23,491 nt of DNA from IMG/VR virus record IMGVR_UViG_3300007623_000034, positions 1 to 23,491 of that record; one strand, written 5' to 3'. Source of the stretch: a virus. Shown in pieces: positions 472 to 18,598 of the stretch. The translations under genes and the position numbers were made by a program. The notes beneath the pieces are model-generated. The model was not told where the DNA came from. It saw nothing but the letters and a program-made list of their open reading frames with translations, and did no database searches. How positions within the stretch are numbered: position 1 is the first letter of the stretch; each line of letters opens with the position of its first letter.

Positions 472-475
472 AAAA

Positions 476-676: not shown

Positions 677-684
677 ATTTATTC

Positions 685-2274: not shown

Positions 2275-2699
2275 TAGTTTTTATACCTTAGTGCTATCTC
2301 AAGCACTTTATTAATATCGTGTCCTTTAGCACAACGAATATCTGTTATACCAGTTGAGAATGCTGCGATAACAACTGAGATACCTTTAGCATTCAACGAC
2401 TTTATATACTCGCCCATTTGTATGGTATCCCAAGTATTAATTCTTCTCTCAGAAACCAACCCATAATAGATCTTGGTTGTAATCCTATCAAATATAACGC
2501 CTGAGCGATCTGGTCTTAGAGATTCGTTATATCCTTCATCGATGTAAACACAATTAAAGTTTACACATGACTCTGGGCGTTCTTCGTATATTGTACAACC
2601 TTTATCACAGAATGTACATTTGCTGTTTTCAGGTTTTGTCAGGGCTGTATCGTTTATAGGTAAAGAAATACAGCACTCATAACAACCATCACAATTCAT
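2274..2699 (-). CDS. YkgJ-type cysteine-cluster protein (141 aa)
   Basis: The N-terminal half carries a cluster of cysteines: CDGCYECC at residues 3-10, then CTFCDKGC at about residues 28-35, then C45 and C50 in RPESCVNFNC. This spacing matches the YkgJ/UPF0153 zinc- or iron-chelating family, which has a CxxCxxCC start and a later C...C..G.C.IY..RP..C block. KGCTIYEERPESC is characteristic. The cysteines probably bind a metal ion or Fe-S cluster. The C-terminal half lacks cysteines apart from IRCAKG and looks alpha/beta. The ATG overlaps the TGA of the DUF1353 gene by four bases (ATGA). A TATAAATA lies 34 bases upstream, inside that gene. Such proteins occur in many phages, but their function is unknown. 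It could act in protein modification or redox chemistry, which is inference only. Confidence 0.82.
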   Translation of the reverse strand: MNCDGCYECCISLPINDTALTKPENSKCTFCDKGCTIYEERPESCVNFNCVYIDEGYNESLRPDRSGVIFDRITTKIYYGLVSERRINTWDTIQMGEYIKSLNAKGISVVIAAFSTGITDIRCAKGHDINKVLEIALRYKN

Positions 2700-3051
2700 A
2701 ATATAACTCTCTTAGATCTAAACTTGCTAGCAGTATTTATAGCCAGCTTTATAACTCTTATTCTAAAATCGCTTATGTCGCAGTATTCGAGCTCTTCGTA
2801 GAATACTCTATTGGCTTCATCCCAGTTACCGTTGTTCTTGTCTATTAGATAGTCGTGAACAATAGCTGCTTTGAATATAGGTCCAGTCGGAGACATCAGT
2901 GTATGGAGGAATACTGGAACACTCGCACCGTCAGTAACATAACCTTTCGGTACAAGTACTCCAGTATATGAAGTATAATCTTCAACCAACTCCCACTTTG
3001 CTCGTTTGTAGGGGTTTGACGGTTGAATGTATTTTACAATCACTTCATTCA

Positions 3052-3052
<1 letters not shown>
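2696..3052 (-). CDS. DUF1353 family protein (118 aa)
   Basis: The core VPKGYVTDGASVPVF (about residues 34-48) followed by FKAAIVHDYLID (about residues 61-72) is the signature of the DUF1353 family, which has a G-[FY]-x-T-D-[GL]-A-S-[IV]-P motif and then a K-A-A-x-x-H-D-x-L motif. The conserved Asp, Ser, His and Asp may form a binding or active site, but no activity is established to my knowledge. The family is widespread in tailed phages, often near fibre or lysis genes. The length is typical. The start overlaps the collagen-like gene's TAA by one base, and the TGA overlaps the next gene's ATG by four bases, so the three are translated as a unit. Confidence 0.88.
2734..2741 (-). promoter_or_regulatory. 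T4-type late promoter core inside upstream gene
   Basis: The minus strand reads TATAAATA within the 3' end of the DUF1353 gene, 34 bases before the ATG of the cysteine-cluster gene. The distance matches the other late promoters in this window. Because it encodes residues of the upstream protein (part of AINT), it could be a chance match. Confidence 0.6.
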
Positions 3053-4242
<1,190 letters not shown>

Positions 4243-4248
4243 ATTATA

Positions 4249-5907
4249 TTACTCTTGTTCAATAAACTTAGTCATGCTCTGGATAAGCTTTAATTGCTCT
4301 GCTTCTAGCTCTTCATTACGCTGCGGTGTTTCAACCACCGGAGTTTCTTCCTCAACTATAGCAGGCTGAGTGTATTGAACGCTATCCGCAAAGCCATCGT
4401 CGTCTTCATCTTCAAGACCAGAACCTTCTTGTTCAATCTGCTTGACAATTTCTTCGATCTCTTCGTCGGTTTGCATAAGAACATTCTTACGAACCCACTC
4501 AACGCTGTAGTAGCGACCAACATATTCGTCAATCTCACGTAAAGTTGCTGCGCGGTTCATTAGCAATTCAGAGTTCTTCATCTCCGAAAAGTGAGAATCA
4601 GATATGAAGTCGATTGTAATATCTTGACTAATATCGTTCCATTCTTCTTCGGTCACGATACCCTTAAGAATCAGTTGAGTCTTTAGAATATCAATAAACA
4701 AGGCAGAGAACTTCTTACGGAGACGATTGATAAACTTCTGAAATTTGAGTTCGTCGCGAGTAGTTTCCTGTGCACGCCCAAGAGATACCATAGCCTGCTG
4801 TTCAGGGTCTAGGCGAGAAATAGGAACGTTAAGCGCCTTGTAAAGTTTCTTCTGGAAGTACATGATGTCATCAATCTGACCAAGGTTTTCGCCGCCTGGA
4901 AGCGTGGTAATTTCCGTACCACGACCGCCTTCACGACGAGGCAACCAGAAATCTTCAAGCATGGACATATGCTTGCGGTCATCCTTCATTTCGCCTGTAG
5001 TTGCGTCATATACCATTTTGTTACGGTAGCGATTCATGATACCACGGAGGTATTCTTCCGCTTTACCCTTCGGCAAGTTACCAACATCGATATAGAAAAT
5101 ACGACGTTCTGGGGCGCGACTTAAACGGTAGATTACCAATGAATCTTCCATCATACGCAACTGGTTAACAGCTTTAACAGCTTTGTGTAGGTATGACTGA
5201 ACTTGCGTACGAGTAGGATCTAGTAGACCGCTTGTCACGTAGGTGACAGAATCCTTTGATATTTTTAATCCAGTACCAGAAGCAACACCATTGCCGCCAA
5301 TACCTTGTTTCTCGTAGATGTAGTATTCTTCAGCACCGACTACTATTTCAGTTCCGGTTTTAGGGTCTTTGTCTTTTATTAGTTCTTTGACTTTACGGAT
5401 TTTAGTTGCGTCGATAGGACGAAGTTCAACAATTCCGTTTTTAGGGTTCTTATCGTCAATAACTTTATGATAGTACAAGCGACCGTCAACGTACCATCTC
5501 CGGAAGATATCGTGCCCATACCAGTTGATATTAAGCATTGAAACGATGTGTTCAAACTCAGCACGAATCATCTTCTTGATTTTATCGGGCTGGTCTAAGT
5601 CATCCATTATAATATCGACTGGGGCTGAATCATCATCGGAAACTATGGCTTCCGAGACGATATCTTCAATAGCCATGTCGCATTCGGCTTGCTGCGCTGC
5701 GTCACGGTATTTTAAAATCTGTTCCCTTTCATTCTTAGCGCGACCGCCTTCCATATCAACATAGGAGCCATAATGCCCCCCAGCGTCAACAACGTATCCG
5801 CCATCGTAATCTTCTTTTGGAACAAACGATTGCTTTTTCTTTTCTTCCTTTTCGATCGACTTCGAGCGTGTAATTTCAAAACCGAAAAGGTTGATTCCGT
5901 CTGCCAT
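4249..5907 (-). CDS. 20: Portal vertex protein (gp20-like, 552 aa)
   Basis: This is the T4 gp20 family, the dodecameric head portal through which DNA enters, the starting point of head assembly and the docking site of the neck. Length (552) is close to T4 gp20 (524). Recognisable blocks are the N-terminal membrane-free start MADGINLFGFEITRS, the segment VDGRLYYHKVID (about residue 140), ELRPIDATKIRKVKE, DSLVIYRLSRAPERRIFYIDVG (central stem region), EGGRGTEITTLPGG, and the late block ISRLDPEQQAMVSLG leading into GRAQETTRDELKFQKFI. The C-terminal ~70 residues are acidic and low complexity. It follows tail tube gene 19 as in T4. Its start has a GAGG about 10 bases upstream. A late promoter (5970-5977) and a strong hairpin (5929-5952) separate it from gene 19. 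In T4-like phages gp20 also serves as a phylogenetic marker. Confidence 0.95.
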   Translation of the reverse strand: MADGINLFGFEITRSKSIEKEEKKKQSFVPKEDYDGGYVVDAGGHYGSYVDMEGGRAKNEREQILKYRDAAQQAECDMAIEDIVSEAIVSDDDSAPVDIIMDDLDQPDKIKKMIRAEFEHIVSMLNINWYGHDIFRRWYVDGRLYYHKVIDDKNPKNGIVELRPIDATKIRKVKELIKDKDPKTGTEIVVGAEEYYIYEKQGIGGNGVASGTGLKISKDSVTYVTSGLLDPTRTQVQSYLHKAVKAVNQLRMMEDSLVIYRLSRAPERRIFYIDVGNLPKGKAEEYLRGIMNRYRNKMVYDATTGEMKDDRKHMSMLEDFWLPRREGGRGTEITTLPGGENLGQIDDIMYFQKKLYKALNVPISRLDPEQQAMVSLGRAQETTRDELKFQKFINRLRKKFSALFIDILKTQLILKGIVTEEEWNDISQDITIDFISDSHFSEMKNSELLMNRAATLREIDEYVGRYYSVEWVRKNVLMQTDEEIEEIVKQIEQEGSGLEDEDDDGFADSVQYTQPAIVEEETPVVETPQRNEELEAEQLKLIQSMTKFIEQE

Positions 5908-5928
5908 AGTTTATAAACCTCTTTCATT

Positions 5929-5952
5929 AAAAAGGGTGCCGAAGCACCCTTT
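5929..5952 (-). terminator. Rho-independent terminator-like hairpin with UUCG loop
   Basis: The minus strand contains a perfect 9-bp stem (AAAGGGTGC / GCACCCTTT, 5952-5944 pairing with 5939-5931) closed by the exceptionally stable TTCG tetraloop, followed by T's at 5933-5929 that extend the stem's own T run. This is a classic intrinsic terminator for transcription coming from gene 19. It lies between the late promoter octamer at 5970-5977 and the portal start at 5907, so it also falls in the leader of the portal transcript. On the plus strand the T-run is shorter and not followed by a gene. Confidence 0.85.
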
Positions 5953-5969
5953 ACACATATGCTTTAAGG

Positions 5970-5977
5970 TATTTATA
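5970..5977 (-). promoter_or_regulatory. T4-type late promoter core upstream of portal gene
   Basis: The minus strand reads TATAAATA in the gap between genes 19 and 20, 62 bases upstream of the portal ATG. Initiation would be expected roughly at 5965-5960, only about ten bases before the hairpin at 5952-5929. The promoter call is supported by an exact match and an intergenic position. Confidence 0.8.
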
Positions 5978-5980
5978 ACC

Positions 5981-6505
5981 TTAAATTGTAGTGTTTGAAG
6001 TCCAGTACTGAACCTGCAGTTCAACGGTGAACTCTTCAATAGTGTTTTCAGAGTCGTAACTTACGTCAATTGCAGATACGTTAGTTGGGAAACAACCACG
6101 CATATCGTAAGTCTTGACAGTAACACCATTCTTATCAAGCTGATCAATTGCTAGATCTGCTTGGTAAAGAAGAGGATTAACCTGACCAAAGTTAGACGTG
6201 TGTCCATTGATTAGGTTCATCCAGCTTTCAAACGCATTACGAACAGCAAAGTTTGTATCGTTGATTACAGTGATAGTCCACGGCTCGAATTCACGGTCGC
6301 CAGCAATCTTCAATTTACGTCCACGGAATGGGATTTCAATTGGGCTGATTACCGAAGCAGGTAGAGACGCAGCCTTACACATGTAAGACGTTAGGTCAAC
6401 GTTGCCTGAAACTCCAGGTGGAAAATTAACACGAACTTTAAACAGGTTCGCACGGGCACCGCCACCGATGAGACGGGCTTTAAACTGATCTACTTCCATT
6501 ACCAT
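5981..6505 (-). CDS. 19: Tail tube protein (gp19-like, 174 aa)
   Basis: This is the T4 gp19 family, the subunit of the inner tail tube around which the sheath assembles. The length (174) is close to T4 gp19 (163). The start MVMEVDQFKARLIGGGARANLF and the conserved core LPASVISPIEIPFRGR (about residues 50-65) and FEPWTITVINDTNF (about residues 78-91) are typical, as is the C-terminal beta strand EFTVELQVQYWTS. Two in-frame ATGs lie six bases apart. A strong GGAGG (6520-6516) is 10 bases from the first and 16 from the second, so I keep the first. The GGAGG overlaps the end of the sheath gene, whose stop is 6514-6512, so sheath and tube are tightly linked. The gene ends just before the late promoter and hairpin preceding the portal. 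Confidence 0.95.
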   Translation of the reverse strand: MVMEVDQFKARLIGGGARANLFKVRVNFPPGVSGNVDLTSYMCKAASLPASVISPIEIPFRGRKLKIAGDREFEPWTITVINDTNFAVRNAFESWMNLINGHTSNFGQVNPLLYQADLAIDQLDKNGVTVKTYDMRGCFPTNVSAIDVSYDSENTIEEFTVELQVQYWTSNTTI

Positions 6506-6511
6506 GGTCTA

Positions 6512-8107
6512 TTAACCTCCTACTAGTTCGCTGAACTCAACGCCAGTACGAGTAGCGATGAAGTTAAGAGTAATGAAGTTGATTGAACGCGCAGGTTTGA
6601 CATAGATGTCAGCCACAAAGCGGTTGGTATCAATAACTTCTGGTGTATTGTTAGTCTCATCGCACACAACTTTAAAGTCGTACATGCCTCGGCGACCTTT
6701 GATGTCGCGTAGGTATGGCTCAACCAATGCTACGAACTGACCGCGAGTGAATTCGTCGTTTAGTTCGAATAGAGTTGATTTAGCAGCAGTAGAGATTGCT
6801 TTTTCGATTGTATTGAATAGGCGACGAACGTTGATACGGTCAAACGCAGAAGCGCGAGTAAGAGAAGTCTTATCTCCGTATAGAACGATACCTTCACCTG
6901 GGAAAGATACGATTGGGTTAACACGTTTCTTGTACAGGCTATCGCGAGCAGCATTGTCAGGATTGAAAGCAATCTTAACAACAGTGTTTAGGCGACCACG
7001 GTTAAAGCCAGCTGGAGAGAACCATGGGTCAGCAACTTCGTCTGTACGAGCACATAGACCAGCAATGTGACCAGAAGCTGGAATCCAACGGTAGTCATCA
7101 TTGTACTTGTCGTAAACGTACAAAGCGGTTGAGTCCATTACACCGTAAGAAGATGAATCAACTTCGTTAGCCCAAGAAAGGACATTTGCCAAAGCAGTAG
7201 AAGAAGAAACGCCAACAGTTTCGGCGGTTGGAGGAGAAACAAATGCCACAGCGTCCTTACGGAATTCTGCAACAGCGATAACAGTATCAGCATCAGCAGC
7301 GTCAAAATCACCACCAATGATTAGGTTACATTCATACACTTCAACATCTTTGAACACTTCGTAAGCAGCAGCAAGATCGTTAGAACCGCCCGCAGCACCG
7401 TCAGCGCCATGATTAAGAGTTGTCTCACCAGAAGCCAAGCTTGCGTTCACATAAACGTAGCTTGATCTTTCGTTGATAACATATACGAAGTAATTGTTTG
7501 TTCCGTCTGCTAGTTTATCACCTTTGGTATCGCCCAAGAAAGCATAAGTTTCTAGGACAGAGCCCGCAGTTCCGGTAAATTCGCCGCCAGCATCGATAAC
7601 AGCAACGTGCATTTCGCCAGCGCCAGGAGCACCGTCAAAGCGAGAAGCTACTGTTTTCTGAAGGGCAGTGCCAGCTTCGTAAGTGGTGAAGTTTGTTGAA
7701 TCGAGTACGTGAACAGCAATGCTATTACCAAGAACGCCTTGGTAGCGAGCAGTTACAGTATCAGTGAAAACTACGCCTTCAGCAGACTTTTCGTTAGGGT
7801 ATTCTGCGCCAGCAGCACCGCTTGTAGCGTTGTATGCAGGCGTACCAGTGTCAGCAGTGTAACGGACAACGCGAAGATCAGAACCGTATTTTAGGAACTG
7901 AGCAGCGTTTAGGAAATCTTTATACATGGAGTCGGTCGGAGTACCGAATAGAGCAGCAAGTTGTTTTTCATTTGAAACTTGCGTCGGTACAAAAGCCGGA
8001 CCCCAACGAAAGTTACCAGCGATCGCACCGATAGATGTCGATACCGCAGGCACTACGTTAGTGAGGTCAATTTCCTTAACCTCAATGCCAGGAGATACTA
8101 ATGCCAT
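6512..8107 (-). CDS. 18: Contractile tail sheath protein (gp18-like, 531 aa)
   Basis: This is the T4 gp18 family, the polymer whose contraction drives the tube through the host envelope. The N-terminus MALVSPGIEVKEIDLTNVV leading into STSIGAIAGNFRWGPAF is the conserved sheath start that interacts with neighbouring subunits. The C-terminal ~150 residues (VNPIVSFPGEGIVLYGDKT, FDRINVRRLFNTIEKAI, RRGMYDFKVVCDETNN, then a final beta-rich ARSINFITLNFIATRTG) are the best conserved part and hold the inter-subunit strands. The protein is about 130 residues shorter than T4 gp18 (659), consistent with a smaller variable outer domain in the middle, as in other marine T4-like sheaths. It follows a late promoter (8168-8175) and has a good GAGG 9 bases before ATG. 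It lies directly before the tube gene, as in T4. Confidence 0.96.
   Translation of the reverse strand: MALVSPGIEVKEIDLTNVVPAVSTSIGAIAGNFRWGPAFVPTQVSNEKQLAALFGTPTDSMYKDFLNAAQFLKYGSDLRVVRYTADTGTPAYNATSGAAGAEYPNEKSAEGVVFTDTVTARYQGVLGNSIAVHVLDSTNFTTYEAGTALQKTVASRFDGAPGAGEMHVAVIDAGGEFTGTAGSVLETYAFLGDTKGDKLADGTNNYFVYVINERSSYVYVNASLASGETTLNHGADGAAGGSNDLAAAYEVFKDVEVYECNLIIGGDFDAADADTVIAVAEFRKDAVAFVSPPTAETVGVSSSTALANVLSWANEVDSSSYGVMDSTALYVYDKYNDDYRWIPASGHIAGLCARTDEVADPWFSPAGFNRGRLNTVVKIAFNPDNAARDSLYKKRVNPIVSFPGEGIVLYGDKTSLTRASAFDRINVRRLFNTIEKAISTAAKSTLFELNDEFTRGQFVALVEPYLRDIKGRRGMYDFKVVCDETNNTPEVIDTNRFVADIYVKPARSINFITLNFIATRTGVEFSELVGG
6516..6520 (-). promoter_or_regulatory. Strong ribosome binding site deciding the gene 19 start
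   Basis: GGAGG on the minus strand, embedded in the last codons of gene 18, is 10 bases before the first ATG of gene 19. It favours the upstream of two closely spaced ATGs. A strong site suits the high copy number of tail tube subunits. Confidence 0.7.
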
Positions 8108-8167
8108 TTGTTTTTCCTCATGGAGTTAATAAGAGATTCATAACAAGTAAATTTTATCAATTACAAT

Positions 8168-8175
8168 TATTTATA
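8168..8175 (-). promoter_or_regulatory. T4-type late promoter core upstream of sheath gene
   Basis: The minus strand reads TATAAATA (flanked TTTATAAATAATT) just after the terminase stop codon and 60 bases upstream of the gene 18 ATG. A separate promoter here fits the need for far more sheath than terminase. Confidence 0.85.
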
Positions 8176-8178
8176 AAT

Positions 8179-9795
8179 TTACCAATCTCTGGAGCTTTTT
8201 ATAGTCCCGTCCCACATTTGTTCTTCAAATGATTGGATCGGTTCTTCGTATGAGTCGCCGCCTATAACGCCAAAGGGAACAACATCATCTTCAATCATAC
8301 GGATATTCTCTGCGTGGATCATATCACGGATGTTGATATCAGTTAAGTTTAGGAAATAAGGAGTGGTTGCGAAATATCCAAACATCACCAAGTTCATAAC
8401 CAAATCGTCGTGGTTTCCTGGAGTCGCCTCGTAGGAAGAACCTCTTGCCTCAAATTGAGATAATTCTATTATAGTCTCTGCGTCGACAATAGTCAACTTA
8501 TCTTCTTCAATTAAGTCTTTTAGATTGGAGCAGCCGATGCGCTTGACCTTCTTGGTCATGTTAACACCAAGGGCATTTGCCTTTACTGCCGACTCTACGA
8601 ATACGTTTTCATACTCAAGTTCATAGTAGAGTCCGTTACAAACAACAGAGCCTTGGTCATTAGATTCGATTATGACATAAGCATCGTTGTAGGTTTTGGC
8701 GTACTTGTATATATGGTCAGGGAATAACAAAGGCGATATAAGGTTATCTCTGAAAGTCGCCACCTGTTTAAAAGGTCTACTTGTTATATCAATAATATTG
8801 AATGTAGAATAGTCTTGCCCTCGCCCTTTGGCCACGTCGACAAACATCATATAATTGTGCTCGGGGTTTGGCTTTTCGTACACGCAAACTGAGCCTTGAC
8901 GATAAACAGGATTATCAGCCTTTAGGGATAATAGTTTGTCGCCTGAGATTAGCGTGTTACCAGCGCCCAAGAAAGAGTTACCGAACTCCTGCATAAACTG
9001 CAGTTCTGACGTGTTCTCGATTGTCTGTTTCTTCCATTCTTCATCTCGCCCAGGAACGTCCCACCAGTCTACGCGGAATGGTTTGTAAGAGTTAGTACCC
9101 TGAACTGCGCCCTCGTATATCTTGTGGAATGTGTTGCCCAAACCATTGGCGGTAGAAGTAACAATTACCCTTGAAGACTTACCAGAAGATACAACAGGGT
9201 AGGTTGAGGTGTAGAACTCAACGTCATTCTCAACGAACGCAAACTCGTCTAGGAACAGTAGGTTAATAGACAAACCACGAATAGAAGAACCTGACGTAGC
9301 AGCCGCTAATATCTTCGAGTTGTTGCTGAACTCAATAGAACCTTTGTTGAGCGACTTACATCCTGGCTGTAGAAAGAAAGGTAAGTTCTCGAGCATCAAC
9401 GTGATGCGCGAAAGCATCTCCCTAGCAGTTGCGCCTTTGTTCGCAAGGATAGCGATATTCTTTTCAGAATGGAATAATGCGTACCAAAGTAGATAAGCAC
9501 AAGAACTGATAGACTTACCAGATTGTCGACAAGCCAAAACGATACTAAATCTGTTGGAATTAAAATGGTCAAACATCCTCTCTTGATAAGGGTAAAGGTT
9601 AAAGGGGACCAAACCCTTATCTAGATGTATTACTTTTAGATATGTGCGCGCGAAGTAAGCGGGATCCTTCATACACTTAGCGTATTCAGTAATCTCTTCT
9701 TTGGTAAAGTTTGTTACAACGCCATCGCGCTTTACATGAGGGTTGCCGAGATAGTGGTGCTCTCTTGGTGGAACATTAGTCGGTATCTGGCTCAA
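8179..9795 (-). CDS. 17: Large terminase subunit (gp17-like, 538 aa)
   Basis: This is the T4 gp17 family, the ATPase-nuclease motor that cuts concatemeric DNA and pumps it through the portal. ATPase domain: Walker A ACRQSGKS (residues 88-95) with K94, Walker B LLFLDE (about 179-184) with D183 and catalytic E184, and the coupling motif TST (213-215). Nuclease domain, RNase H fold: acidic residues D320 in FVDVAKGRGQDYS, E377 in VIIESNDQG, and D463/D464 in NHDDLVMNLV, matching the T4 D401/E458/D542 triad. At 538 residues it is shorter than T4 gp17 (610), mostly at the N-terminus. The start codon is TTG: the next in-frame Met is M42, downstream of the conserved YLGNPHVKR segment, and AAGGA sits 8 bases before the TTG. 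The start lies 20 bases inside gene 16, as in T4, so translation is probably coupled. Confidence 0.97.
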   Translation of the reverse strand: MSQIPTNVPPREHHYLGNPHVKRDGVVTNFTKEEITEYAKCMKDPAYFARTYLKVIHLDKGLVPFNLYPYQERMFDHFNSNRFSIVLACRQSGKSISSCAYLLWYALFHSEKNIAILANKGATAREMLSRITLMLENLPFFLQPGCKSLNKGSIEFSNNSKILAAATSGSSIRGLSINLLFLDEFAFVENDVEFYTSTYPVVSSGKSSRVIVTSTANGLGNTFHKIYEGAVQGTNSYKPFRVDWWDVPGRDEEWKKQTIENTSELQFMQEFGNSFLGAGNTLISGDKLLSLKADNPVYRQGSVCVYEKPNPEHNYMMFVDVAKGRGQDYSTFNIIDITSRPFKQVATFRDNLISPLLFPDHIYKYAKTYNDAYVIIESNDQGSVVCNGLYYELEYENVFVESAVKANALGVNMTKKVKRIGCSNLKDLIEEDKLTIVDAETIIELSQFEARGSSYEATPGNHDDLVMNLVMFGYFATTPYFLNLTDINIRDMIHAENIRMIEDDVVPFGVIGGDSYEEPIQSFEEQMWDGTIKSSRDW

Positions 9796-10120
9796 CTTTT
9801 ACGTCCTTCATCTTATTAGCTAACATCTTTTGTAGATCTGTCGTAGAACCAACAAAAAGGTTGTTATTTGTCACTGGAGCATTTAGAGAAGGGGATGCCT
9901 TCTCTTCTTTTTCAATATCTTTCTTTTTCTTTTGAAGGTCCATCAATTTATCAGTTATGTCTGCGTTTTGCTTAAGCATACCAGCCAATACTTCGAACGC
10001 ACGCGGGTGCTCGCTCTCGCGTGCGAGCTCCATCATCATTTCAATCGCCTCTTGCCCTTGTTCCGCCAATCTGTAGTATTGGCTTCGGGCGTATCCGTAA
10101 TCATCATCAATATCAGACAT
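9776..10120 (-). CDS. 16: Small terminase subunit (gp16-like, 114 aa)
   Basis: It sits between tail-completion gene 15 and large terminase gene 17 and overlaps the latter by 20 bases, the exact T4 arrangement. The T4 protein forms a ring that recognises DNA and stimulates the gp17 ATPase. Here the protein is 114 residues against 164 in T4. The N-terminus is acidic (MSDIDDDYGYARSQYY), followed by helices containing LAEQGQEAIEMMMELARES and HPRAFEVLAGMLKQNADI, then a coiled-coil-like LMDLQKKKKDIEKEEK, and a polar C-terminus. The helical middle corresponds to the oligomerisation core of the family. Assignment rests on context plus this layout, because small terminases diverge fast. The ATG follows the gene 15 stop by one base. 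Confidence 0.9.
   Translation of the reverse strand: MSDIDDDYGYARSQYYRLAEQGQEAIEMMMELARESEHPRAFEVLAGMLKQNADITDKLMDLQKKKKDIEKEEKASPSLNAPVTNNNLFVGSTTDLQKMLANKMKDVKVEPDTD
9804..9808 (-). promoter_or_regulatory. Ribosome binding site supporting the TTG start of gene 17
   Basis: AAGGA on the minus strand, inside the 3' end of gene 16, is 8 bases upstream of TTG at 9795-9793. It supports a rare start codon for the terminase. Low initiation would suit an enzyme needed in few copies. Confidence 0.6.
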
Positions 10121-10121
10121 G

Positions 10122-11093
10122 TTAAGACACCGTGTACTCGTTTATAACAAAGGTTTGACCGCTAGTGCTTCCGGTTAAGGTTTCACCAACTGTAAAATAT
10201 CCATCAAGATTATTTATAACCACAGTTGTTTCGTCGGCTTGCTCATCGTAGGTTATAGATTCTATTCTACCGCCAACCGCACTATCCGCTCCGATTACAA
10301 CCTCATTATCCGTTACGCCAACGGTTCCTGATACCACAGCAGATATAAAGTTCTCTGGAGCGATATAGTTAAAGGTCTTGACGACCGAGTAATCGTCAGA
10401 TGAAGATGACGATATTGGATCTACGACTTGACTGACACCTTGTAGGTATGAGTCGATGTTTTTACGGTAGTTGACCAAAGTGTCTTTAATAATTTTAGAT
10501 TTTACTACCTGACCGAAGAAGTGCACTCTCATAGTAAAATCTAGGGTGTACATGATCACACGCCTAGTTTGGAAGTCGCTTTCATAGTCGTCATTGATTG
10601 TGACACTTTGAAGCGTGATCGGAACGTCAAAAGAATTTTCTACACCGTCAATCAACTTAGCAGATACTGAGTAAGTCGGTTCAAAGGTCGGTAGAATTTG
10701 TTCTAATATTTGTAGAGCGTCATCCTGACTTTTCGCCAAGATGTTAAGTTGCATCCCTATAATGTAAGGAACGTTACCTATGGTGTCTGCTTCTTCGCCG
10801 TCATCAGATAGGCGCAAACGTTGAACCTTGCTGGTCTTTATTTGATTGTTATACTCAACGCTAGTAATCTCGAAAGACATACGAGGTAGCTTGATTGCTA
10901 CCTTCTGGTCGGTTAAATCAGCCTGTTGGTCTATACGGGCAAGGAACTTTTGTTTCGGTCCATAAGCAAGGGGGACGCTAGTGATAATAGATTCAGAACC
11001 GCTTTTCCGCATTATATTGATGTTATTGAATACAGTTCCGAATATAGAAACACTCTTTCGCAAAATACCGTGGTAAAAATGAGACCCAAACAT
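10122..11093 (-). CDS. 15: Tail completion / sheath stabilisation protein (gp15-like, 323 aa)
   Basis: T4 gp15 forms the hexameric ring that caps the finished tail and joins it to the head. The family signature is seen at the start, MFGSHFYHGILRKSVSIFG leading into FNNINIMR, and in PLAYGPKQKFLAR and KLPRMSFEITSVEYN. QRLRLSDD, VPYIIGMQLNILAKSQDDALQILEQ (read as two adjoining stretches) and RRVIMYTLDFTMRVHFFG also fit. It has 323 residues against 272 in T4. The extra part is a C-terminal extension with the repeat-like segment VVSGTVGVTDNEVVIGAD then TLTGSTSGQTFVINEYTVS, which may be a small beta domain. The ATG overlaps the gene 14 TAA by one base. It is followed by gene 16 after one base, as in T4. 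Confidence 0.94.
   Translation of the reverse strand: MFGSHFYHGILRKSVSIFGTVFNNINIMRKSGSESIITSVPLAYGPKQKFLARIDQQADLTDQKVAIKLPRMSFEITSVEYNNQIKTSKVQRLRLSDDGEEADTIGNVPYIIGMQLNILAKSQDDALQILEQILPTFEPTYSVSAKLIDGVENSFDVPITLQSVTINDDYESDFQTRRVIMYTLDFTMRVHFFGQVVKSKIIKDTLVNYRKNIDSYLQGVSQVVDPISSSSSDDYSVVKTFNYIAPENFISAVVSGTVGVTDNEVVIGADSAVGGRIESITYDEQADETTVVINNLDGYFTVGETLTGSTSGQTFVINEYTVS
10211..10218 (-). promoter_or_regulatory. Possible late promoter core inside gene 15
   Basis: The minus strand reads TATAAATA within the 3' part of gene 15, 90 bases before the gene 16 ATG. It could drive the terminase genes. It lies inside a coding sequence and further from the start codon than the other octamers, so a chance match is possible. 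Confidence 0.45.
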
Positions 11094-11995
11094 TAGAATC
11101 CTCCTGGCTCACCGAATGGATTTGCTTCAGAGAAATCCAAAATTTCATTAGCTTCTCTCTCAAATGTATCGTTGGCAGCATAAGTTGATTCAGCGCCTGA
11201 ACCGTCAACACTTCCTAGTTGATTAAACGATACGAGAGTACAAATATTGTTACCGACAGTAATATTCTGCCCCTTCAAGAACTCATGGTAGAGCCCGTCC
11301 GAAGTCTTAACATTAATGACGTTAATTGTAGCGCCACCGCTGATTATATCGCTGCGAGAAACTACCTCAGCTGTAATATCTACATCGCTTATAGTTTGAG
11401 ATACAGTATCGCCAAGGTTGATTGTAGCGCCTTCGATTAGACCCGATAGGGTTAGTTTTAGACGGGTGTTAAATACCGTTTCGACCGCATCAATGTCATT
11501 AATACCAGTTTTGAAAGTTTCTTCGCCAAACTCAAACATAGAACACTGAAGCTTGTATGTAGGCAAATTACTGAGTTGGTAGAAAGGCGATTCATGCTCA
11601 ACATGATCAATCTGAAACATTGACTTTGACAGGGGCAAGTAAATCAAATCGCCTTCATTTGGACGGATCTGTTCAGATTCCCACTGACCTACTGCCTGTT
11701 CCCAACGTCTACGTGAAACAATAAAGGTTGCCTGATCTCGAATTTCCAGACCGAATTTAGAAAGTAGATTTCCTTCGCCTTCAAACCCTTCGGTATTTTC
11801 GATATAAGACTCTATGATGTATGCGTCGTCAAACTGAGACTCAACCGCCTCTCCGAACACATAATCCCGTTCAACTATATTCCTCGGAAGGTAATAAACG
11901 TCTTGGCCATATATCTTCAAAGATTCTATTATTAGATCTTCGTAGAGGTTTTGTTCAGAGACAACCTTTTGTGAGATGTAAACGCTAGTTGCCAT
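11093..11995 (-). CDS. 14: Neck protein (gp14-like, 300 aa)
   Basis: T4 gp13 and gp14 form the neck that closes the filled head and binds the tail. The N-terminal part SEQNLYEDLIIESLKIYG (about residues 14-31), QDVYYLPRNIVERDYVFGE (about 32-50) and ISRRRWEQ-like IVSRRRWEQAVG with GDLIYLPLSKSMFQIDHVE are the conserved gp14 blocks. It has 300 residues, compared with 256 in T4. The C-terminal ~110 residues (TLSGLIEGATINLGDTV onward) look like an added beta-rich segment, and the end (FSEANPFGEPGGF) matches the usual gp14 tail. Gene order 13-14-15 is as in T4, with a 4-base gap after gene 13 and a 1-base overlap with gene 15. Confidence 0.94.
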   Translation of the reverse strand: MATSVYISQKVVSEQNLYEDLIIESLKIYGQDVYYLPRNIVERDYVFGEAVESQFDDAYIIESYIENTEGFEGEGNLLSKFGLEIRDQATFIVSRRRWEQAVGQWESEQIRPNEGDLIYLPLSKSMFQIDHVEHESPFYQLSNLPTYKLQCSMFEFGEETFKTGINDIDAVETVFNTRLKLTLSGLIEGATINLGDTVSQTISDVDITAEVVSRSDIISGGATINVINVKTSDGLYHEFLKGQNITVGNNICTLVSFNQLGSVDGSGAESTYAANDTFEREANEILDFSEANPFGEPGGF

Positions 11996-11999
11996 TGTA

Positions 12000-12770
12000 T
12001 TATCCTATCATGAAGTCAGCTGGCATTTCGTAGCGTAGCTGCATCTCTTCTTCGATCTTATCGATTTCTAAATTGGCATCATCGAACATTTGACGTCCAT
12101 TAAACGTTACGCCACCTGGAAGCAACATGCCGTCAAATTTCATCATGTTCGTGCCCCACTGACGTTTGATCAATGCAGTCGCATAACGTTTAAGGAACAT
12201 ATCGTTGTAAACGTCAGTAAACGTTTCTGGGTCTACAACTTTACTTCCCTCAACAATAATCCAATCGCCTTCTTTGAGGTCAGTTTCCCAATCGAGGTAT
12301 AGGTTAATCCTGTCCATATGGCGGTTGAATACGGTATTGGTTGTCCCATTACCGAAAGTCATATTGAGCATTTCAATATAACTTTTTGTCATTGTGTATG
12401 ATGTCAAATCCATCCAAATACCACCACCGTTGCGGAGTAGGTATGCGTCGGATAACATCATTTGGTATTGGACATTGAACATACCGCTACCCATACCAAC
12501 GCCGCCTGCTGTAGTGTTGATAGGCATTACTCGTTTAACAACTTGAAGTTCTTCCGGAACGGTAATGTATTTGTTGGCGATATCCTCAGCCGTCATCTGA
12601 TATTTGAAATACGTATTTACGATAGCATCAGAGTGATATTCTTGATAGAATTGTAGAGCTTCGTCTATACGATCTTCAATTTGGTCTTCGTCTACGTTTA
12701 TTTCTACAACTGGTGCGCCCAGTTTTCGTAGACAAAAATCAATTAAGTCTTGTCTTGATGCTATAGCCAT
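12000..12770 (-). CDS. 13: Neck protein (gp13-like, 256 aa)
   Basis: This is the T4 gp13 family, partner of gp14 in the head-to-tail connector. The N-terminus ASRQDLIDFCLRKLGAPVV followed by INVDEDQIEDRIDEALQFY is diagnostic. Other conserved parts are YITVPEELQVVKRVMPI, the NRHMDRINLYLDWETDLKEG stretch, and the C-terminal FLKRYATALIKRQWGTNM with LPGGVTFNGRQMFDDA and EEEMQLRYEMPADFMIG. It has 256 residues, shorter than T4 (309). It starts the conserved 13-20 series here and follows its own late promoter (12798-12805), 27 bases upstream, which separates this unit from the adhesin array. Confidence 0.95.
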   Translation of the reverse strand: MAIASRQDLIDFCLRKLGAPVVEINVDEDQIEDRIDEALQFYQEYHSDAIVNTYFKYQMTAEDIANKYITVPEELQVVKRVMPINTTAGGVGMGSGMFNVQYQMMLSDAYLLRNGGGIWMDLTSYTMTKSYIEMLNMTFGNGTTNTVFNRHMDRINLYLDWETDLKEGDWIIVEGSKVVDPETFTDVYNDMFLKRYATALIKRQWGTNMMKFDGMLLPGGVTFNGRQMFDDANLEIDKIEEEMQLRYEMPADFMIG

Positions 12771-12797
12771 GTTGGTACCTGTTATGATAGTTTACTA

Positions 12798-12805
12798 TAT
12801 TTATA
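12798..12805 (-). promoter_or_regulatory. T4-type late promoter core upstream of gene 13
   Basis: The minus strand reads TATAAATA in the short gap after the 2OG-Fe(II) oxygenase gene, 27 bases upstream of the gene 13 ATG. It would start the neck-terminase transcript. Confidence 0.85.
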
Positions 12806-12806
12806 A

Positions 12807-13451
12807 TCAGAAATAAACCACGTTACACTCAAGTTCTGTATCGTACGCATAATGGCACTGCAGAGTAATCCTGAACTGATCCGGTCCATCAACCTGAGTC
12901 CTACCAACCCTATGGACAACATGACCACTCCATTCACTTAGTTTGTAATATTCGTAATGATATTGCTTTATTTCATCGCCATCATAATAGTCCAACCAAG
13001 TACCGTTTGTTGGTTTCTCGATTATTAGGTTTGCCGACCTTATAGTACTCGCGTCAATAGTCGGTCTATATTCTATTATACTTGTATCGGTGTGGAAACC
13101 AGGAATATAATTTATTGGTAGATTTATTACATGAAATCCAGGACATGATAGAACAGGGTCTATTATGGTCTTTATTCCGCTGCGCTCTTCTATACTACTA
13201 AGGATTCTGTCATATATCCACCCAAACTTTTCAATCATCCTATTCTTTAAATCATAATCCGTTTGTGCGTGATTTTCGTGGTGGTATAATGCCCAACCAA
13301 GATGACAGAATCCTTCTTTATGAATGCCGTAAGCGGCATGTAGTTCTGGGCTAATTTGTTTCCATTCATTACGAAACGATAATACATCTTCCCTTATTTT
13401 GAGGCGTTCTTCCTCAGTAATAAAGTCTTCAATCACATTTATCAAATTCAT
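12807..13451 (-). CDS. 2OG-Fe(II) oxygenase-like protein (214 aa)
   Basis: The sequence has the metal and co-substrate residues of the 2-oxoglutarate/Fe(II)-dependent dioxygenase superfamily. An HxD pair (H120, D122) is in PGFHTDTS, a distal His (H180) in GHVVHRVGR, and an Arg (R194) in DQFRITLQCHY would bind the 2-oxoglutarate carboxylate, with the His-Arg spacing of about 14 usual in the family. PINYIPGFHTDTS and KPTNGTWLDYYDGDEI resemble the strands around the jelly-roll active site. Such proteins are frequent in marine T4-like phages; their substrates are mostly unknown (protein side chains, nucleic acids or small molecules). The ATG overlaps the last propeller gene by four bases (ATGA), so it is translated with the array, and it ends just before the gene 13 promoter. 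A role in modifying a virion protein is possible but not shown. Confidence 0.85.
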   Translation of the reverse strand: MNLINVIEDFITEEERLKIREDVLSFRNEWKQISPELHAAYGIHKEGFCHLGWALYHHENHAQTDYDLKNRMIEKFGWIYDRILSSIEERSGIKTIIDPVLSCPGFHVINLPINYIPGFHTDTSIIEYRPTIDASTIRSANLIIEKPTNGTWLDYYDGDEIKQYHYEYYKLSEWSGHVVHRVGRTQVDGPDQFRITLQCHYAYDTELECNVVYF

Positions 13452-14992
13452 TTTAAATCCGTTGTTATGTCGTTAACGAGTCTATCCACAAGCTCAATTG
13501 GGTCAACCCCTTTTATTTCCGTTACCGCAAATCCACCATACCTATATAACGGATCGAAAGTACCATCGGTAATCCTAGGTCTGGAGAAAACTACCCTATC
13601 TTTATACATATTAATAGAAGCAAAGTCAAAGACGTTAGCATCAAATGTTATCTCAAAATAAGCGTTGGATGGTCTGTTTATGTAATTTGTGTTTATTTCA
13701 TAAACACTGCTTCTACTAACGTGATTTGGCGACGCCCGACCTAACCTAACAACCTTAACCATTTCATCTCTTGAGTCTTCTGTATACGCTACGATGTTAT
13801 CACCCAGCGCAAAGTGGTTGAAGTATCGTACCGCATTGCCTGTAGATATAGATATTTCATAATCTGGCGCTGTCTTAATACCAGAATCTGTAGCATAAAA
13901 AAGAAGTGACCAATTCCTTGGCGTGGTAGCTCCATTTCCTCTGTAACAAGAAGTAGCTATCAAACCGTTCTTAAAGTCTAATTTCCACCCAAACTTTTGA
14001 TTTGGATTCGAAATGTCGGTGGTGTCTCCCAGAGATGCAGGCGGAGTTATCTTATGCATAAGCCTTTGGTCAGGGTTGCCAGTAGTCCCGACCTGATATG
14101 ATATACTGTAAATGTATATTGCCTCGCTGGCATTATCAGCTTCATTGAAAGCGGACATACCAATCGCGATACAACCCCCGTCTATCTTAAACCCCCGATA
14201 AGGATCTTCAAGGTTAGCGCCAACTTGAAGTGTTGGTTTTCTGATACTAATGTAAGGACCGACGTCGTCATTGGCGTATTGAACGTTAGCGGATTCGTTC
14301 GAATCCGGTGAAGGGAATCTAAACCATCCCATAAAGGAATTAGCGCCACCAATAGCCTGATCCCATACAGGGGAGTATAAGTTCCAACTACCATTAATAT
14401 ATGCGACATCAACAGCACAGCCAATCAAATAATTTGGTGCGGTGTTAGATGCTTTAAACGTTTCCACAAGGTTTCCGTCCCAATCATAGTATTTTACGCA
14501 ACCTTGATAAATATTTACACTGGATGAGTACCAACCTGGAACTCCGACGGCAATACCTTCTCTAAACAGCTTTATTGAATACCCAAAAAATGGCGCATCA
14601 GCGTAGCCCGAATACCTTGTAGGCTCGTCATCGATTATTGTAAATAATCGATTGCCTGTAGTATAATCATAAATGTGGACCCTACCAACATAAGTAGTTC
14701 CACCATCTTCAGTGTATAAAGGATCCGACACACCAATGAAATTTCCGTACTGGCTTACGTCAAATCCAAAAGTGTTTGAATTAGTGCTGGTGTATGGTAT
14801 AGTATCAGTGAACCTAGAATATTTCCATTTATACTGAAGATCGCCTGTTACAACATGATCGGAACTATGGTCGTCTATATCCCTAGCAACGCATTCTCTC
14901 CAATAAGGGTGGCTAAACACGCTCCATTCAGCTGTATCTATGTTCCCTAATGGTTCACCGTTTTGAAAAGAATCTTCCCTTAATTGTGCCAT
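13448..14992 (-). CDS. Beta-propeller-like (FG-GAP/WD-like) array protein 6 (514 aa)
   Basis: Sixth and last of six related-looking proteins. Blade-like units are seen as a repeated F-G-x-x-h...G/A-h-x-h motif: FGFDVSQYGNFIGVSDP (75-91), FGYSIKLFREGIAVGVPGW (136-154) and FGWKLDFKNGLIATS (334-348). These alternate with strand pairs of the form h-Y-D-x-x-T-G-x-x-h: VHIYDYTTGNRLFTI (105-119) and VKYYDWDGNLVETF (166-179). This resembles FG-GAP and WD/PQQ-type beta propellers. No signal peptide, membrane segment or catalytic motif is visible. The protein ends in a short charged helix (DPIELVDRLVNDITTDLK), as do its neighbours. It starts MAQL, overlaps the preceding array gene's TAA by one base and the oxygenase gene by four. 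A host-recognition or baseplate role is inferred from position. Confidence 0.8.
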   Translation of the reverse strand: MAQLREDSFQNGEPLGNIDTAEWSVFSHPYWRECVARDIDDHSSDHVVTGDLQYKWKYSRFTDTIPYTSTNSNTFGFDVSQYGNFIGVSDPLYTEDGGTTYVGRVHIYDYTTGNRLFTIIDDEPTRYSGYADAPFFGYSIKLFREGIAVGVPGWYSSSVNIYQGCVKYYDWDGNLVETFKASNTAPNYLIGCAVDVAYINGSWNLYSPVWDQAIGGANSFMGWFRFPSPDSNESANVQYANDDVGPYISIRKPTLQVGANLEDPYRGFKIDGGCIAIGMSAFNEADNASEAIYIYSISYQVGTTGNPDQRLMHKITPPASLGDTTDISNPNQKFGWKLDFKNGLIATSCYRGNGATTPRNWSLLFYATDSGIKTAPDYEISISTGNAVRYFNHFALGDNIVAYTEDSRDEMVKVVRLGRASPNHVSRSSVYEINTNYINRPSNAYFEITFDANVFDFASINMYKDRVVFSRPRITDGTFDPLYRYGGFAVTEIKGVDPIELVDRLVNDITTDLK

Positions 14993-16491
14993 TATTTAGA
15001 CCTACCTTTAAACAATCTGTTAAATTTACCGCGAAGCTTTTCTGAGTTTAAATGCTCAACGCTATATGCGCCTGCGGTTGTATTCGCGACTATGTTGTGC
15101 CTGTATACCAACAATCTATATCCGTTAGCGTTAAAATCATCAGAATCTGCCCCTCCTGTTCCGACGACAAGATATGTCGGAGTAGCCAAAACAATCCTTC
15201 CGAAATTATAAGGATAGCTGGGGTGAGTGAAAGTATATTTAAAAACTTGATCTTCGTTTGAGTTAATACCAGGCTTCAGCCATAAATGAACAGCACCAGT
15301 AGTATAATGAGACGAAGCTATTGCCACTAATGTATGATGATTATATATGTTCACCTCGTATGTTTGCATGGGTAAATGAGTAGTGGACATACTTTTACCA
15401 AATGCACCTGTGGGATACCCAGGCGGAGCCGCGAAATTGTTGGTATAAACCGTTCCTGTAGTTGCGTTTGAGTTAAGGTATGTCAACATAACGTTGTCAT
15501 GAGTGTGATCCGAAATTAAATAATAGCCATCTTGAACTAAGGAATTTTCTCCAGTATAATGAAGCGCTTTTAAACTAAAATATGGTAAACTCTGGACGAA
15601 ATTTTCTCCTCCACCACCGATGGTAAAGTCGTCGAATAGACTGACCTTGTTATAAGGTGTAATACCGCCAGCAGTAAATGTGACCCAGCTGGATGGTGAA
15701 AACGAATTCAAATAAGCCGCATAAGGAGATGTTAACTTCCTAGAAAGATAAGCAATTTTAGTGGTGGAAATAGCTGTTAATGTACCAGCTACAATGAAAT
15801 CACTGTTAGTAGCAGTGTGAGTGTATTCGCCAAGGTAGGAAGAACCCCAACCATCTTCTTTGCCGACCCTATTAATAAGGTAGATATAAATCTTCGATTG
15901 GCTGATGGAAGAGATGTAAACTATATTGCCTTGTACAATTAAATCTGACCCAAAGTCTGTACTAGAGTCAGGACAAACAAAATGCTCTATTAATTCCCCT
16001 GTGGTTAAATCGTACATATCGACATAACCATTGGAATTGGTACTGATATCAAAATCTTGGAGTTCGTCGTTAGAAGCTGTTTGTTCTCCATTATGAGCTA
16101 GAAAAAGAAAATCTCCGTGTAGATGGGCATTGATTATTCCGGAGTTTGATGTAGAGTAGTCGCCACCGACATATGTTTTAACCAAAGCTCCAGATTCAAT
16201 ATCATAAATGTATACAGCACCTGTGAGATTACCGCCAGTGTTTTCGTTTAATGCGGGTACCATCAACCACCTATCATTAGCTTCAGCATTTGCTGCAAAC
16301 TGATCGCTGGCTGTGTTCAGAGCGTTAATATTAGGGTTGGTTAGTTCATACAGTAAAGTAGGTGCGGCAGTTGCAGTTGCTTGTACAGGTCCCTTTTTAA
16401 ACCTATTAACGAAATCTGTTGAAGTTTCATTTGAAGGGAGAGCAGCAATAGGCTGTCCTCCAACTTTAGTGTTTATTTGTAACTTTGCCAT
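14992..16491 (-). CDS. Beta-propeller-like (FG-GAP/WD-like) array protein 5 (499 aa)
   Basis: Fifth array protein. Blade motifs are VYIYDIESGALVKTY (93-107), DMYDLTTGELIEHF (158-171), FGSDLIVQGNIVYISS (180-195), FGKSM (364-368) and FGRIVLATPTYLVVGTGG (430-447). The x-D-x-x-[TS]-G hairpin and the F-G start of blades match the other array members, while the rest of the sequence is quite different. The N-terminus is MAKLQINTKVGGQP, and the C-terminus is a basic helix (NSEKLRGKFNRLFKGRSK), unlike the acidic or mixed ends of its neighbours. It directly abuts the previous gene (TAA then ATG) and overlaps the next by one base, so the genes are co-translated. No catalytic residues are evident. A surface adhesin is the best inference. 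Confidence 0.8.
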   Translation of the reverse strand: MAKLQINTKVGGQPIAALPSNETSTDFVNRFKKGPVQATATAAPTLLYELTNPNINALNTASDQFAANAEANDRWLMVPALNENTGGNLTGAVYIYDIESGALVKTYVGGDYSTSNSGIINAHLHGDFLFLAHNGEQTASNDELQDFDISTNSNGYVDMYDLTTGELIEHFVCPDSSTDFGSDLIVQGNIVYISSISQSKIYIYLINRVGKEDGWGSSYLGEYTHTATNSDFIVAGTLTAISTTKIAYLSRKLTSPYAAYLNSFSPSSWVTFTAGGITPYNKVSLFDDFTIGGGGENFVQSLPYFSLKALHYTGENSLVQDGYYLISDHTHDNVMLTYLNSNATTGTVYTNNFAAPPGYPTGAFGKSMSTTHLPMQTYEVNIYNHHTLVAIASSHYTTGAVHLWLKPGINSNEDQVFKYTFTHPSYPYNFGRIVLATPTYLVVGTGGADSDDFNANGYRLLVYRHNIVANTTAGAYSVEHLNSEKLRGKFNRLFKGRSK

Positions 16492-17874
16492 TTAACGATC
16501 CAAATACTTTCTTATGTATATATCTGCTGCTGAAGTTCTTATTGGAATTGGAGTTATAGCGCCAGTAAGAGTTCCCGCCCCATTAACGTTTAATCGATCG
16601 CCAATGCAGAGAACATCGCCAACGAGAGCCGCGACACTGCCCCTGTATAGACTAGAGGTAGCTGAAATTTGGGTACGCCCAGAGTAAGAACCAGTTGGGT
16701 CTTCCCTTCCCATTGCGTAAGAGCCCCACATCACCCCACCAATATTGTATCGGGTAGTTTTACTAGATTGATAATCGTGGTTTGGACATCCTATAACAAA
16801 CATGTTATCATTGCAATCCATGTCATATCCAAAATAATCCGGAGCGTTTGTTAACCCACCGAGGAATGGGCTAGGTATTGACAACCTCGAATCGGAAGAT
16901 ACGTCATATATGTCTACCTTTTCTTGGGTCATGTCAGGTCCGCCCATCGCTACCATTAAACGGGATCCTCGCATAACAATGTTAAACCCCCAACCATAGT
17001 TGTTTGTTTGTAGAGAACTAACATGCTTCCAAAATTGAATGTCCATCAATTGAGTTTTATGGTTGTATTCCCATCTGTATATATTTACTCCACCATAATA
17101 TCCGTCATTTCCTACGGCACTAGGGCTGTATGTAACAGCAATGTATCTTTCGTTCATAACAATTTTACGAGCGAAATTGAGGGGGTCTGACATTCGATTT
17201 AGACCATCTTCAATTTGATCGATCGGGGCGCTGACATTATCTCCAGTGTATGCGTTAAAAATCTGAAAATACCTTGTGTTGTTTACGCCATTATATTTGC
17301 AAATCGCTAGGAATGGACCCCAACCATCCATGTCGACTATTTTATCGTTTGCTTGTAATGGTAATGTGTGAGTCCATTCCTTACCAGTCTTTAAATCGAC
17401 AAAATCAACAATACCATCCGAATCTGTGCCCACAACGCTGTAATATCCAGCAGCAGCATAATGCTCCGTGACAGCTTTCCTCAATGAGTCACCATATAGA
17501 TGAGAAGAATATGGGTATAATGGGTTCCTAGTGAATAAATGTAATGGTTTGTTCGTCATTACATCGAAAACAACAGGACCATCTTTCGTTGTGGAATAAG
17601 CGTCACTTGGGTCTGTTGAACACATTAGGTAATTATGTGACTTTTTACTTGGGGCGACACAAATGTCTTTGGTGTGTTCCGTCACCCCGAAGAAATCGCC
17701 TGTAAATGCTGTTTGAGGATATCTGTTGAAGATTAAGGAGTTCATAACGTTGTCAAACAATTCTTCTGTGTCATTATGTATGGTCGGGTTCACGTTCAAG
17801 GTGTCGCCGACACCTTGATAATTGTATGGGTCAGTGCTCGTTAATCGTAAACTTGACTCTTTAAGGTCAGCCAT
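16492..17874 (-). CDS. Beta-propeller-like (FG-GAP/WD-like) array protein 4 (460 aa)
   Basis: Fourth array protein and the first after the lipB-like gene. It is preceded by a late promoter (17920-17927). Blade motifs are VVFDVMTNKPLHLF (101-114), DFVDLKTGKEWTHTL (157-171), FQIFNAYTGDNVSAP (203-217), YGWGFNIVMRGSRLMVAM (293-310) and FGYDMDCNDNMFVIGCPNHD (348-367). The order and spacing of the F-G and T-G units resemble array proteins 5 and 6. The N-terminus MADLKESSLRLTSTD and the short charged C-terminus SAADIYIRKYLDR follow the pattern of the array. No enzyme motif or export signal is seen. It forms one transcription unit with proteins 5 and 6 and the oxygenase gene. Confidence 0.8.
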   Translation of the reverse strand: MADLKESSLRLTSTDPYNYQGVGDTLNVNPTIHNDTEELFDNVMNSLIFNRYPQTAFTGDFFGVTEHTKDICVAPSKKSHNYLMCSTDPSDAYSTTKDGPVVFDVMTNKPLHLFTRNPLYPYSSHLYGDSLRKAVTEHYAAAGYYSVVGTDSDGIVDFVDLKTGKEWTHTLPLQANDKIVDMDGWGPFLAICKYNGVNNTRYFQIFNAYTGDNVSAPIDQIEDGLNRMSDPLNFARKIVMNERYIAVTYSPSAVGNDGYYGGVNIYRWEYNHKTQLMDIQFWKHVSSLQTNNYGWGFNIVMRGSRLMVAMGGPDMTQEKVDIYDVSSDSRLSIPSPFLGGLTNAPDYFGYDMDCNDNMFVIGCPNHDYQSSKTTRYNIGGVMWGSYAMGREDPTGSYSGRTQISATSSLYRGSVAALVGDVLCIGDRLNVNGAGTLTGAITPIPIRTSAADIYIRKYLDR

Positions 17875-17919
17875 TATAAATCTCTCTATTATTACTAGCG
17901 AATTGCCGCATATTACAAC

Positions 17920-17927
17920 TATTTATA
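17920..17927 (-). promoter_or_regulatory. T4-type late promoter core within the propeller array
   Basis: The minus strand reads TATAAATA in the 79-base gap after the lipB-like gene, 45 bases upstream of the ATG of array protein 4. It is the only late-promoter octamer found between 12806 and the right end of the window, so proteins 1-3 and the lipB-like gene depend on a promoter further upstream. Confidence 0.85.
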
Positions 17928-17953: not shown

Positions 17954-18598
17954 TCATTCAAAATCCCATGACGTTGTTTCTAGTTCTATATCAAAATTAA
18001 ATGCCTTGGCGAAGTTCTCAATCAGGATAGGCGTTACTTGTTCAACCGTGATACCCTCAACATAGTCTGACATTCTAGCCGACTTCATACCAATATAGCC
18101 ACAAGGGTGGATAACTTCAAATCCATCGTTTTCGTTTGTGACGTTGAGAGAAAACCCCCAAGAAGTCCACATATTATCAATCGAAAGACCAAGAGCGCTT
18201 ATCTTCTTGTTGTCGTAGTACACGCCTGGAGCAGTTGGTTCCAAGAAAACGTCATACATACCAAAATGGTTCAGGGTGTCAACAACGCTCTTTTCAATCA
18301 ACCTCTCCATACTCATCGGGTCTATATTAGATTTGATCAAATCGCGCATGTTCAGATTCATATAGCAAGATATCTGTCCTGGCGCAAAATGAGTTACGCA
18401 TCCACGCCTGTTAGTTTTTATGATTGGCGTGCCGTCACGAGTAACTTCGCCAACTCCGTCAAGACCTTCTGTGAACGCCCTCTCGTGTTCAGTAACCCAT
18501 ATTTCATTTTGTTTTTTGGGGAGTTTCTTGAACTCCTCCAATTTATCAATAGCATCTTCTATTTTAATAATACCGAGTTTTCTCACATTCAATTTCAT
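17954..18598 (-). CDS. lipB: LipB-like octanoyl-[acyl-carrier-protein]:protein octanoyltransferase
   Basis: LipB moves octanoate from acyl carrier protein to a lysine on lipoyl domains, the first step of endogenous lipoate synthesis. The 214-residue length matches E. coli LipB (213). Seen in order: TEHERAFTEG (36-45), matching the EHPPVFTLG block; RRGCVTHFAPGQ (64-75), matching the RGGxxTYHGPGQ block; APGVYYDNKKISALGL (123-138), with candidate catalytic Lys132; SLNV (150-153); and HPCGYIGMKSARMSDY (164-179), with catalytic Cys166. Catalytic Lys and Cys are thus kept. Two histidines common in the family are altered: the H of YHGPG is F71, with H70 beside it, and the H of the FHGLALNV block is W147. 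The gene starts three bases after array protein 3 with GGAAGG upstream, so it belongs to the late array transcript. The acceptor protein is not identifiable here. It could support host dehydrogenase lipoylation or acylate a phage protein. The family assignment is firm, the activity is not. Confidence 0.93.
   Translation of the reverse strand: MKLNVRKLGIIKIEDAIDKLEEFKKLPKKQNEIWVTEHERAFTEGLDGVGEVTRDGTPIIKTNRRGCVTHFAPGQISCYMNLNMRDLIKSNIDPMSMERLIEKSVVDTLNHFGMYDVFLEPTAPGVYYDNKKISALGLSIDNMWTSWGFSLNVTNENDGFEVIHPCGYIGMKSARMSDYVEGITVEQVTPILIENFAKAFNFDIELETTSWDFE

Follow-up and report, generated by a model that had tools for sequence, protein, structure and literature searches.

The locus described here raises the question of what an oxygenase, whose gene directly continues that of a virion adhesin in a phage genome, is acting upon. 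The window (viz. the whole stretch of DNA that was analysed, an IMG/VR fragment of 23,491 bases) comes from a T4-like myovirus with all of its structural genes on the minus strand, and this phage is a marine tailed phage. Among named records, Phage C48C1 (classified under Kyanoviridae) is the nearest, with a terminase identity of 68%, and the closest contig found, designated L002, shows a terminase identity of 80%. Cyanophages carry many 2-oxoglutarate (2OG) oxygenases, whose substrates are largely unproven in the literature that we found. In the first-pass annotation of this DNA, an oxygenase-like protein was proposed to be coexpressed with adhesins and to be a candidate hydroxylase of a collagen-like fibre of the same phage. 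Our first choice of explanation, which taken as a whole we put forward tentatively, is that the protein is a late, adhesin-modifying Fe(II)/2OG hydroxylase, which is made together with propeller-like proteins and modifies a product of its own transcription unit. The genes and motifs surrounding it are, in their order on the minus strand:

17920..17927, minus strand: late-promoter motif TATAAATA, within the gap of 79 nt upstream of prop3
16492..17874, minus strand: propeller-like adhesin prop3, 460 aa, first gene of the oxygenase's late unit (from gene layout)
14992..16491, minus strand: propeller-like adhesin prop4, 499 aa, in the same late unit (from gene layout)
13448..14992, minus strand: propeller-like adhesin prop5, 514 aa, last propeller, overlapping the oxygenase gene by 4 nt (ATGA)
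12807..13451, minus strand: Fe(II)/2-oxoglutarate oxygenase of 214 aa, on an orphan branch within a WelO5-like hydroxylase family that has as yet no name (from family HMM, fold and residues)
12798..12805, minus strand: late-promoter motif TATAAATA, separating the oxygenase from gp13 and opening the next late unit
12000..12770, minus strand: gp13-like head-tail adaptor Ad2, first gene of the next late unit (PHROG 211)

The label "propeller" for these adhesins is based solely on weak FG-GAP matches below the curated cut-off. The sequence TATAAATA is the core of the T4 late promoter and it occurs 7 times in the window, all 7 on the coding strand, a number that was reached in none of 100 shuffles; 5 of these 7 are located within intergenic space, which comprises 2.2% of positions (p about 1e-7). 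The seven sites span positions 464 to 17927 (minus strand), mostly in gaps, and they mark the borders of late units. Their action as promoters in this phage may be supposed from T4 and from their positions. As one copy is found on the coding strand upstream of prop3, as for T4-type late genes, and another between the oxygenase and gp13, the genes for prop3, prop4, prop5 and the oxygenase read as one late unit in which the oxygenase is last. Further, the start codon of the oxygenase overlaps the stop codon of prop5, so that the coupling to the last propeller gene claimed in the first-pass annotation holds, and the proposed coexpression of the oxygenase with propeller adhesins is supported by the late motifs and the gene layout. 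Elsewhere in the late region of the window, a small Cys-rich protein of 141 aa (ORF 2274-2699, minus strand) adjoins an ORF of 529 aa at 685-2274.

The oxygenase ORF is a genuine, intact-looking gene for an Fe/2OG enzyme, and the residues H120, D122, H180 and R194 are present in its product as had been annotated. This protein has no Pfam or NCBIfam match and its matches to PHROG families are weak; the match to PHROG 29037 ("endonuclease") was rejected, as the halovirus protein concerned has NUMOD3/endonuclease signatures and no oxygenase match. The assignment as an oxygenase is borne out by a profile of 100 relatives from which the window protein was held out, which scored 74.8 bits (E 8e-22) over aligned residues 9-206, compared with 7.2 bits for the best of 500 shuffles, and also by a confident predicted fold. 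The AlphaFold2 model based on 66 sequences has a pLDDT of 90.3 and a pTM of 0.89, versus a pLDDT of 40 from the single sequence, and when it was compared with the PDB using Foldseek, the WelO5 halogenases were the top matches (E 2.8e-9, TM 0.73-0.76), followed by other 2OG oxygenases and PHD2. The 50 best PDB fold matches are all 2OG oxygenases or putative relatives thereof, in agreement with a double-stranded beta-helix, and the best match in a library of viral structures is a Pithovirus protein (TM 0.81). In the family alignment, the iron triad is nearly invariant (H120 and D122 in 66/66 sequences, H180 in 65/66). R194, which is kept in 64/66 relatives and pairs with the Arg of WelO5, is a basic residue after the distal His for the 2OG carboxylate and is likely the 2OG arginine. 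The family profile also matched WelO5 among PDB sequences at 1.3e-4, the best match being the G166D variant, with which the H-x-D motif, the distal His and the Arg are all in register. The WelO5 halogenases have a Gly instead of the iron-binding Asp, which makes room for chloride. The Gly/Ala of the WelO5-halogenase family (PF22814) is not found in the window protein, which carries D122 at this position, and due to the presence of this Asp, hydroxylation rather than halogenation is its predicted chemistry.

Direct tblastn searches and scans of viral contigs using the window protein alone revealed no relatives, and the family was reached via a P-HM2 protein and a PGFH codon pattern, followed by a profile scan. 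In virus contigs, 127 relatives were confirmed, of which 80 were kept. Sporadic members also occur in bacteria, viz. in 3/369 genomes of the class to which the Enterovibrio member belongs, 6/291 of that of the cyanobacterial member (Coleofasciculus) and 7/116 of that of the Chlamydiae member. PF22814 is matched by 13/66 family members and is the sole Pfam 2OG family that relatives match. The family is an unnamed, WelO5-like one of marine phages and bacteria that has no Pfam model of its own. In cyanophages and their kin, its members adjoin primase gp61 and nrdA/B; the representative of a cluster of 27 loci lies between DNA polymerase and exonuclease/helicase genes, and other viral members are near DnaB, terminase, portal or integrase. 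The bacterial members are fused to a RimK-like ATP-grasp domain, or their neighbours are LanC, acetyltransferases or a further 2OG oxygenase that has pentapeptide repeats. Fusions of the first kind are seen in the cyanobacterial loci L142 (355-2202) and L145 (1498-3168), and in L144 a LanC-like gene adjoins the oxygenase-family gene; these three loci are possible peptide-tailoring clusters. Tandem paralogues of the family occur in six loci (L088, L094, L095, L166, L173 and L188), several of them beside genes of the size of primase or ribonucleotide reductase.

The surroundings of the relatives (DNA polymerase, exonuclease, primase, nrdA/B, terminase and portal in phages; LanC, ATP-grasp fusion and acetyltransferases in bacteria) were counted against the modification of propellers. 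The frequent proximity of phage relatives to DNA polymerase, exonuclease, helicase, primase and ribonucleotide reductase genes would agree with an enzyme acting on nucleic acid or nucleotides, as would the role in DNA repair that has been suggested for cyanophage 2OG proteins (PMC3037559). However, the window copy belongs to a late unit of structural genes, eight residues conserved in the family are missing from it, and the protein has no sequence match to the AlkB or TET/JBP families, so that we consider this explanation doubtful. The eight replacements, at positions near-invariant among 66 relatives, are R33I, T50H, Y61H, N69K, F140A, T141N, G152W and G199C, and the tip branch of the window protein has a length of 3.27, whereas the median tip is 0.13. 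No close sister was retrieved in a search for the pattern HR-V/I-GR...RITLQ, and the pairing with Enterovibrio seen in the tree is distrusted because of the long branches. Judged from its sequence, this oxygenase is a divergent relative forming an orphan branch and not a typical family member, and its substrate cannot be inferred from its relatives. A branch of this length makes a loss of activity possible, and together with the eight changed positions it would fit a family enzyme in decay, or one that survives as a non-enzymatic relic. However, the 214-codon frame is open, the four catalytic residues are intact, the start codon overlaps the preceding gene and the fold is predicted with high confidence; a relic is accordingly an improbable explanation, and the protein is probably active as an enzyme. 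The eight replaced residues also fit a changed substrate, as the adhesin-modifying hydroxylase would have.

The position of the oxygenase gene can be compared with that of a second enzyme in the window:

17954..18598, minus strand: LipB octanoyltransferase-like protein, whose gene closes the upstream propeller unit (TIGR00214, 109 bits against a cut-off of 83.55)

In this protein, the aligned residues Lys132 and Cys166 are conserved. In the contig L002, a late motif is followed by three propellers, by a pair of LipB genes (5688-6332 and 6345-6992), by a further late motif and by gp13, i.e. its LipB genes are directly before gp13 in the slot that the oxygenase occupies in the window, and this layout is repeated in the independent contig L234. 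That LipB closes the other propeller unit of the window, and that L002 and L234 are laid out alike, were counted in favour of the propellers as substrates. As a target of LipB, no lipoyl domain was found in the window and two relatives, which are fragments. On these observations one may speculate about a phage-encoded kit for modifying receptor-binding propellers, where each propeller unit is closed by a protein-modifying enzyme (the hydroxylase or the LipB-type octanoyltransferase) and two LipB genes take the place of the hydroxylase in the nearest relative, a proposal to which we attach a rather low probability. In two other T4-like relatives, L048 (3696-4872) and L049 (4259-5543), a heme oxygenase and a ferredoxin-dependent bilin reductase are encoded upstream of gp13, and their presence in the equivalent slot was counted against propeller modification. 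Since this slot accepts varied enzymes, some of them plainly metabolic, the location of the oxygenase should not by itself be interpreted as proof of an adhesin substrate.

These results bear directly on another explanation, according to which the protein serves auxiliary metabolism or tailoring, as an active Fe/2OG enzyme that hydroxylates a small molecule or short peptide and whose gene occupies a late slot for cargo, flanked by the tail-fibre genes and gp13. Such a substrate is almost as likely as propeller modification, and we hold this explanation to be a serious, if likewise tentative, one. The WelO5 enzymes, which act on a small molecule and in this respect count against the propellers, are the closest solved structures; LanC, ATP-grasp or acetyltransferase genes are found next to the bacterial members; and the slot in relatives carries heme oxygenase with bilin reductase, as well as LipB. 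However, metabolic cargo is not usually expressed in a late unit or coupled via ATGA to the gene of an adhesin and, LipB aside, no partner biosynthetic gene is present in the window. If instead the enzyme is the adhesin-modifying hydroxylase that we favour, it would be transcribed late from the promoter before prop3 together with the three propeller genes, would bind Fe(II) and 2OG and form a ferryl-oxo species with O2, and would then hydroxylate a carbon atom in one of the products of its unit. The most likely target would be a side chain of at least one propeller adhesin, modified before tail assembly, and this hydroxylation would alter receptor binding, stability or recognition.

The hydroxylation of Lys or Pro at the Y positions of the collagen-like fibre, as proposed in the first-pass annotation, concerns a gene in another part of the window:

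3052..4242, minus strand: collagen-like fibre, in the portal late unit (Pfam Collagen, 1.2e-26)

The composition reported for this protein is exactly right: it has a single uninterrupted run of 50 Gly-X-Y triplets, with Lys at Y in 15 and Pro in 2. The presence of both genes in one phage, the 15 Lys residues, and a giant-virus precedent that is real (Mimivirus L230, characterised as a telopeptidyl lysyl hydroxylase of collagen; PMC9546862) speak for such a reaction. However, no sequence link of L230 to the oxygenase was seen, and neither the family profile nor the single oxygenase sequence matched a collagen lysyl hydroxylase at E<=10; sequence and best fold point to WelO5 instead. Of the coexpression supposed for the oxygenase and the fibre, what stands is that both genes look late, but they belong to separate late units, the fibre being located 8.6 kb away, after the portal, with at least three late-promoter motifs in between. 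Lys at Y was also rejected as a sign of lysyl hydroxylation, because its levels are similar in orthologous fibres from records where no family enzyme was found: the three fibres most similar to that of the window have 12/52, 12/52 and 14/51, compared with 15/50 in the window. The fibres of the other two relatives have 7/59 and 5/34. Bacterial collagen-like proteins assemble into triple helices with no hydroxylation, and most of those in prokaryotes dispense with hydroxyproline, relying on polar and charged residues (PMC8968730).

The two families also do not occur together in the other records examined. A collagen domain is present in 0/20 virus records (most of them fragments) bearing the oxygenase family, and runs of at least 8 Gly-X-Y triplets were found in 0/85 family-bearing virus loci versus 5/80 terminase-bearing relatives, with no match to the oxygenase family by profile search in any of the latter five. 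The profile searched in 14 collagen-bearing records does detect known carriers, and 2 of these 14 have a Pfam 2OG-FeII_Oxy_3 protein, which is of a different 2OG family. The L002 fragment has propellers and no collagen match. However, as the base rate of collagen is low (5/80), the result of 0/20 should be interpreted as showing no association and not as avoidance. In view of the WelO5-type match, the separate late units, the similar Lys content and the lack of co-occurrence, the fibre is quite unlikely to be the substrate.

The promoter motif and the overlapping codons, in contrast, tie the oxygenase to virion adhesin genes, which is unusual and narrows its candidate substrates to a few proteins. 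If our first choice is true, adhesin variation would gain a new layer, in a phage whose own enzymes hydroxylate or acylate its receptor-binding proteins.

Among known systems, WelO5, WelO5* and Wi-WelO15 (Fe/2OG halogenases of PF22814) resemble the window protein in being its top solved fold and in the order in which His-x-X, the distal His and the Arg follow one another, but they differ from it by the Gly at the position of D122, by an identity of 10-12%, and in that the window protein matches no Pfam model. PHROG 24927, of unknown function (Prochlorococcus phages P-HM1, P-HM2 and MED4-213), is homologous over residues 11-200, and its member P-HM2_172 shares the PGFH, H-x-D, GH..H and R.T.Q motifs; however, P-HM2_172 has about 26% identity and is encoded beside primase gp61 and nrdA/B rather than in a tail unit. 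Mimivirus L230 and PLOD are, like the window oxygenase, Fe/2OG enzymes with a double-stranded beta-helix, but they are absent from its 50 best folds, and phages do not have the collagen context in common. The collagen-type and HIF prolyl 4-hydroxylases (PHD2 and the P4H of P. putida) are alike in general fold, with TM values of about 0.45-0.59 that are clearly under those of WelO5, and differ in having no sequence match to the oxygenase.
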